NCBI GenBank assembly: GCA_030608565.1
Contig: JAUWDY010000016.1
Coordinates: 1-40,036, forward strand
Reading direction: 5' to 3'
Source: Candidatus Bathyarchaeota archaeon
Lineage (GTDB): Archaea > Thermoproteota > Bathyarchaeia > Bathyarchaeales > Bathyarchaeaceae
DNA: 40,036 nucleotides
The notes below the pieces were generated by a model, which did no database searches, was not told the DNA's origin, and saw only the letters and a list, made by a program, of their open reading frames with translations. The position numbers were made by a program, and so were the translations under genes. Positions 1,787 through 20,515 of the stretch are shown piece by piece (position 1 is the stretch's first letter; each line of letters begins with the position of its first letter).

Positions 1787-2491
1787 CTAAAATCGATGCC
1801 CATACTTTCCAGTCAAAGGCACAAACGCAACCCCACCCAAATTCTCCCGAACGATCTCCCCATCCCTCTTCCTAATACGCAAAAGTGTCTGATAGAGATA
1901 AACACCCCCAACCGGAATAACTAAGACTCCACTAGGTTTCAACTGCTCTATCAACGGTTGAGGAACATCTGGAGCCGCAGCCGTCACCAAAACACGATCA
2001 TACGGAGCTTCTTTCGGATAACCCTTTGATCCATCTCCACAAATGACGGTGATGCGGTCTCCATATCCAGCCTTTTCAACATTTTTTCTCGCAAATTCAG
2101 CCAGTCCAGCAACTATTTCTACAGTGTAAATGTGCCCCCACTCTTTTCTAGGCGTATCCGTCGGAGCTATAACCTCAGCTATCGTGGAGGCATGCCAACC
2201 CGAACCAGCACCTATCTCCAGCACCCGGTGCCCCACTTCCAACTCAAGGGCTTCATCCATAATTGAAACCATGTTTCGCCCGGCTGACCGCGTGGATCAG
2301 CTGAGAGGCGCCGAAATGGTTTGTCCAGATCCTATTGGAAGCGGGGAATCTATAGTTCCGTATGACTTCACATTCTCTGGGAGAAAAGGCTCCCGAGAGA
2401 CTCGATGCAACGCTTGAATAACCTGTGGCGACCGAAGTATTCCTTGCCTAACTAACCTTTGGACTAATTCCTCCCAAGCCTGTCTTTTCAT
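1787..2491 (-). CDS. pcm: Protein-L-isoaspartate O-methyltransferase, interrupted by probable 30-nt mRNA intron
   Basis: This SAM-dependent enzyme methylates L-isoaspartyl residues in damaged proteins so that they can be repaired. Exon 1 (2305-2491) encodes the N-terminal helices and PLPIGSGQTISAP. Exon 2 (1787-2274) encodes MVSIMDEALEL, SAM motif I (VLEIGAGSGWHA) and the rest to the C-terminus. Between them an in-frame 30-nt insert contains a TGA stop. Removing 2275-2304 joins C to AC and gives the family-typical SAPHMVSIM (His63) in a 224-aa protein of normal length. The insert sits in a bulge-helix-bulge fold (see the intron entry). If it is not spliced, the gene is broken into a 64-aa and a 161-aa ORF, the second starting at ATG 2272. 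It is convergent with fen1. Confidence 0.88.
2275..2304 (-). other. Putative BHB (archaeal splicing-endonuclease type) intron in pcm mRNA
   Basis: In transcript sense, exon 1 ends in the 4-nt helix strand CGCC followed by the bulge UC^U. The intron hairpin is CAGCUGAUC, loop CACGC, GGUCAGCCG (8 pairs with one A.C mismatch, including one G.U). It is followed by the helix strand GGCG and the bulge AA^A. CGCC/GGCG is exactly 4 bp between two 3-nt bulges, and cutting each bulge after its second base releases 30 nt. Outside, AAACCAU (2316-2322) pairs with AUGGUUU (2266-2272), with one G-C pair next to the bulge and a 4-nt asymmetry. The geometry predicts the same junction that protein conservation requires. 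Confidence 0.75.
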
Positions 2492-20382: not shown

Positions 20383-20474
20383 GGGCCCGTAGCTCAGCTA
20401 GGTTAGAGCGACAGAAATTTTCCTCGTCGAAGCTCATAACCTGTTGGTCGGGAGTTCAAGTCTCCCCGGGCCCA
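20383..20474 (+). tRNA. Elongator tRNA-Met (CAT) with a non-canonical intron
   Basis: Acceptor GGGCCCG pairs with CGGGCCC, discriminator A. The D-arm is GCTC/GAGC. Removing 20415-20431 (17 nt) joins ACAG to G and gives the anticodon stem ACAGG/CCTGT with loop CTCATAA, anticodon CAT. The T-arm is GGGAG TTCAAGT CTCCC. The intron lies inside the 5' anticodon stem (between positions 30 and 31 by canonical stem numbering), not at 37/38. The BHB elements are CGAC (20407-20410 plus flanking bases) pairing with GTCG, bulges AG^A and AA^G, and outer GAG/CTC. Confidence 0.9.
20415..20431 (+). other. 17-nt BHB intron of tRNA-Met
   Basis: It starts AAATTTTCC and ends GTCGAA. A 4-bp CGAC/GTCG helix lies between two 3-nt bulges, each cut after its second base. 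This is the same geometry as in the pcm element, though the intron-side loop is too short for an inner helix. Confidence 0.8.
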
Positions 20475-20515
20475 CTAGGACGATTTTCGTAGCGCAAAAA
20501 CTTCGTGACATTCTT

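Follow-up and report, generated by a model that had tools for sequence, protein, structure and literature searches.

A predicted relaxed bulge-helix-bulge intron in the pcm pre-mRNA of Bathyarchaeia

The window analysed here is a 40,036-nucleotide stretch of DNA from the draft assembly (G000; 1.76 Mb in 45 contigs) of an uncultured bathyarchaeal archaeon. The gene pcm, encoding protein-L-isoaspartate O-methyltransferase, is placed on its minus strand (2491-1787), and the read-through product is a full PCMT protein (PF01135, E 1.9e-54). The frame of 235 codons reads ...GQTISAP-LS*STRSAGRN-MVSIM... and is open except for a single TGA (2297-2299, minus strand), which lies, as a first-pass annotation of the window had claimed and the frame reading confirms, in an in-frame insert of 30 nt within the conserved SAP-H-M motif. 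The insert, UCAGCUGAUCCACGCGGUCAGCCGGGCGAA (2304-2275, minus strand), interrupts the His codon. It separates exon 1 (2491-2305, minus strand), made up of 62 codons and the first base, C, of the split one, from exon 2 (2274-1787, minus strand), which opens with the remaining AC, continues from MVSIM to the stop codon and aligns to solved PIMT structures. Excision leaves CCT CAC ATG, that is Pro-His-Met, and the alignment of P. furiosus PCM (1JG1) crosses the spliced junction gap-free, as 'saphmv'. The earlier proposal that cuts after base 2 of two flanking bulges would remove 2275-2304 and rebuild SAPHMVSIM thus stands, with CAC regained. Over the source genome, a covariance model of the intron (R1, see below) matches this site once with 61 bits; no further copies of the element were found by the same search, which returned otherwise only chance-level scores of 17.6 bits or less.

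The predicted RNA motif, on the minus strand, is built around a core helix of 4 bp. Its 5' strand, CGCC (2310-2307), occupies the Ala-Pro codons of exon 1 and its 3' strand, GGCG (2280-2277), lies inside the intron. The borders are marked by 3-nt bulges, UCU (2306-2304) and AAA (2276-2274), with predicted cuts after base 2 of each, between 2305 and 2304 and between 2275 and 2274. The middle C of the 5' bulge and the third base, A, of the 3' bulge are found in 108/108 intron-bearing loci. The core positions pair in 100, 100, 99 and 100% of 76 aligned rows; among the 108 loci the core is CGCC/GGCG in 99 and CACC/GGUG in seven, with one G.U pair and one mismatch in the others. Core and bulges are as the earlier annotation had described them. 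The intron helix (5' strand 2303-2295, 3' strand 2289-2281) had been described as a hairpin of nine positions and is present; in this species it contains a single A.C mismatch (2302/2282). The annotated exon helix of 7 bp fared less well. The pairing exists (AAACCAU, 2322-2316, with AUGGUUU, 2272-2266) but is detached from the core: UUCGG intervenes on one side, just the bulge of 3 nt and a C on the opposite side. It is complete in only 25 of the 108 intron-bearing loci and in 2 of 27 intronless ones. Lacking core contact and conserved in a minority only, it was rejected as the exon helix of a strict BHB.

An exon helix abutting the core, as in the strict hBHBh' motif, was looked for in the 108 loci and was not found. 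A single G-C pair next to the core, on its exon side, is the same throughout, in intronless genes too, and the positions that follow are paired in 41% and 14%; because of this, the predicted pcm motif is classed as a relaxed BHB and not a strict one. With one or two pairs at the core in place of a strict exon helix, cleavage would rely on relaxed specificity. Relaxed motifs are cut efficiently only by (alpha-beta)2 and epsilon2 endonucleases, aided by a loop lysine (reviews; PMC6379350). A group I or group II intron is ruled out, since the window gives no such match in Rfam, where it yields tRNAs only, and 20-48 nt, the range of the pcm inserts, is far too short.

A search of 101 relative genomes with the read-through protein recovered the same interruption across the genus, the family and the order. 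Seventy-eight usable pcm loci were extracted, 57 with the insert and 21 without, and the position of the insert is always identical. Named GTDB loci were then added to the set. The model R1, built from 76 introns (alignment A3), matches 111 of the 257 genomes of the class and, outside it, six genomes of three families. The class families with the weakest matches and the six outside genomes were extracted and, L170 left aside, all proved to be pcm with the insert. The final set holds 108 distinct intron-bearing loci, mostly from Bathyarchaeia and otherwise from three families belonging to further classes of the phylum, and 27 intronless loci; 20 intact pcm genes in more distant genomes are additional to it. 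In insert-free relatives pcm reads straight through. The comparison with related pcm DNA suggested by the first-pass annotation shows the insert at the identical site in 108 loci. Decayed pcm genes devoid of the pairing, which that annotation named as evidence against an intron, were also looked for in relatives, and the opposite was found: cutting after base 2 of both bulges restores CCN-CAC-ATG, hence Pro-His(CAC)-Met, in 108/108. Intron lengths range from 20 to 48 nt and are multiples of three in 27 of 108. The remaining 81 (75%) shift the frame, so that the in-frame length is a trait of this species; the annotated combination of an in-frame length with a TGA ending translation of unspliced mRNA holds here.

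In one family (f10; L166-L177, L179, L182) the pcm introns measure just 20-26 nt and have tiny hairpins, and UUA and UCA are among the 3' bulges. The loci outside the window's class (L198-L203, of families f33, f34 and f43) carry the pcm intron as well, and the core in f34 is uniformly CACC/GGUG.

Folding of the single sequence was rejected as proof of the motif, the z scores being weak (-2.29 on 68 nt, -0.50 on 108 nt); it is the comparative evidence, rather than a lone fold, that lifts the predicted motif far above chance. In A3, against shuffles that treat the sequences as unrelated, covariation is 0.494 versus 0.205 +- 0.012, paired cells amount to 95.4% versus 81.5% (20-41% in slid registers), and double-change cells number 165 versus 56. 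Within the intron helix, double changes occur in this alignment at each of the seven bulge-proximal pairs tested, and RNAalifold recovers the same helices without guidance. The exon-side G-C and most core pairs rarely vary and are therefore little informative by themselves. The core does contain a compensatory change from G-C to A-U (CACC/GGUG) that is seen in whole lineages. Base 2 of the core falls at the wobble position of an Ala codon, which is GCG in 84 of 86 genes with the intron (GCA in the other two) versus 14 of 26 without it (p = 1.5e-7); elsewhere in the same exons GCG makes up about one fifth of the Ala codons.

Both pcm exons are under purifying selection. In 15 pairs of related intron-bearing genes, pN is 0.009-0.22 versus a pS of 0.05-0.62 in exon 1 (50 codons), and in exon 2 pN is well under pS, with dN/dS of 0.06-0.22 where computable. 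A stop in the frame of exon 1 lies inside 80 of the 108 introns, including all 27 in-frame ones. Shuffles give 39 +- 5, and the two remaining frames meet stops in 40 and 56 introns; the related sequences are not independent, so this excess is only suggestive. Mapped onto a tree of 143 PCM proteins, the intron requires 15 changes versus 39 when shuffled, and at least seven are forced by well supported branches, in a count that is unrooted and does not tell gain from loss. The simple reading would be one ancient gain followed by repeated exact losses, and gene transfer may form part of this history. Intronless loci such as L010, L019, L022 and L157 have the look of base-exact loss leaving CAC or CAT. 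Such exact losses appear as if the gene had been replaced by a copy of the spliced mRNA; selection for function would equally yield exactness.

The source genome encodes two EndA paralogs, whose residues were read from sequence alignments. One (L160) is alpha-like, nearest to A. pernix 3P1Z/3AJV and S. tokodaii 2CV8, with the Tyr, His and Lys present and a loop Lys aligned to A. pernix position 44; the other (L161) is beta-like and lacks the catalytic His. The host splicing endonuclease is accordingly predicted to be of the hetero-oligomeric (alpha-beta) type. The RtcB RNA ligase is encoded by one gene. The window itself holds a tRNA gene (20383-20475, plus strand) that is called tRNA-Lys(TTT) by default and becomes tRNA-Met(CAT) once a non-canonical BHB intron of 17 nt (20415-20431) is removed by the same cut rule as in pcm.

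A pre-mRNA intron in cbf5 of Crenarchaeota was reportedly described by Watanabe in 2002 and Yoshinari in 2006. In a paper of 2020, cbf5 is the sole coding BHB intron reported in Archaea (PMC7714728), and the published crenarchaeal introns measure 16-44 nt and are cut between bulge bases 2 and 3 (Yokobori 2009, PMC2738675). A TruB_N search in the relatives gave 40 bathyarchaeal cbf5 loci (L236-L275). In 32 of them the catalytic Asp codon (GGTLDP) is split behind its first base by an insert of 18-40 nt, at the published crenarchaeal site (PMC2738675). The core pairing is complete in 28 of these 32, the bulges are mostly AGA and AAA, and the cut rule is that of pcm. Being a known intron in the same clade with the same geometry, it serves as a positive control. 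All four genomes from the genus of the window contain the pcm intron, and their cbf5 is intronless.

Features of a cbf5-type intron are found for pcm: removal of the insert restores coding, a 4-bp core is flanked by 3-nt bulges at the borders, the borders fall between bulge bases 2 and 3, and RtcB is encoded. Like the cbf5 intron, the pcm intron is short, sits behind the first base of the codon for a conserved residue, has a relaxed BHB with that same cut position, shows lineage-specific losses and co-occurs with EndA of the hetero-oligomeric type, as judged here by sequence. It differs in residing in a methyltransferase and not a pseudouridine synthase, in its sequence, site and main clade, and in being predicted from DNA. 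Core helix, 3-nt bulges and cut rule are shared with archaeal relaxed-BHB tRNA introns (HBh' type); unlike these, the pcm intron is in a protein-coding gene, and its exons therefore need not form a stem. EndA-dependent UTR processing likewise has an mRNA as the substrate of EndA, but joins no coding exons. The first-pass annotation held archaeal mRNA introns to be rare, with cbf5 established and none known in pcm. A literature search for an intron in archaeal pcm or isoaspartate methyltransferase genes, whose coverage leaves aside subscription journals and preprints, found none and agrees with this; in the literature searched, pcm would be the second gene after cbf5 with an archaeal pre-mRNA BHB intron.

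With high confidence, the pcm insert can be read as a relaxed bulge-helix-bulge intron of the pre-mRNA, and the annotated protein-coding BHB intron is supported by more than 100 loci with the same site, cut rule, CAC codon and covarying helices. Site, conservation, covariation, restored codon, purifying selection and enzyme genes are read directly from the genomes; from them we infer the cutting and joining of the pcm RNA and any regulatory role. In the transcript CGCC would pair with GGCG, leaving 3 nt bulged out on either strand. The two-subunit endonuclease would cleave both bulges behind their second base, and ligation of the exons by RtcB would restore the His codon of SAPHM from C and AC. 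Translation of the unspliced mRNA would stop at the TGA after 64 codons.

That pcm is split into two polypeptides, the latter starting at the ATG of MVSIM, is very unlikely: the exon 2 ATG does follow GGCGA or GGUGA, with a faint likeness to a ribosome-binding site, but the gap from GGCG to ATG is just 4 nt, the Met is just as conserved in intronless relatives, and neither the invariance of the split C and AC nor the covariation between exon 1 and intron is explained. The same invariance in 108 loci, needless for a hop, speaks against programmed ribosome hopping over the 20-48 nt insert in place of RNA splicing. A hairpin and an early stop just past the take-off region would suit such a hop; the junction nevertheless splits a codon, and the core helix pairs exon 1 with the end of the intron and places the bulges of 3 nt exactly at the borders, like the tRNA and cbf5 introns of the clade, which makes hopping extremely improbable. 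The in-frame stop and the draft state of the assemblies could also suggest that pcm is decayed and the insertion inert, or that the assembly is in error. The insert recurs at the same site in more than 100 independent genomes, both exons are under purifying selection and the genome has no second copy of the element; same-site inserts, covariation and exon selection taken together refute this reading, whose probability is next to nil.

If pcm is spliced as a relaxed BHB intron, there would be a second gene whose intron is ancient, conserved and has been lost repeatedly, and the splicing of mRNAs by the tRNA machinery would count as a recurrent form of gene organisation in Archaea and not a one-gene curiosity. 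More than 100 natural variants become available for studying how EndA recognises relaxed motifs, how introns are gained and lost, and how they are removed precisely, free of the spliceosome. Gene callers take such intron-bearing genes as broken. Quite tentatively, Bathyarchaeia and some sister lineages might maintain a small permanent repertoire of spliced mRNAs (pcm, cbf5, probably more), with key codons split after the first letter, the tRNA-splicing machinery as a switch on the functional protein and the intron stops as part of the control.

In one genome (G049) R1 gave another match (L178), which falls in an unbroken P-type ATPase gene and was discarded as a chance match. Two contigs with Asgard names in their titles, Candidatus Wukongarchaeum (L084) and Njordarchaeum (L110), contain pcm with an intron of bathyarchaeal type and are possibly misbinned.
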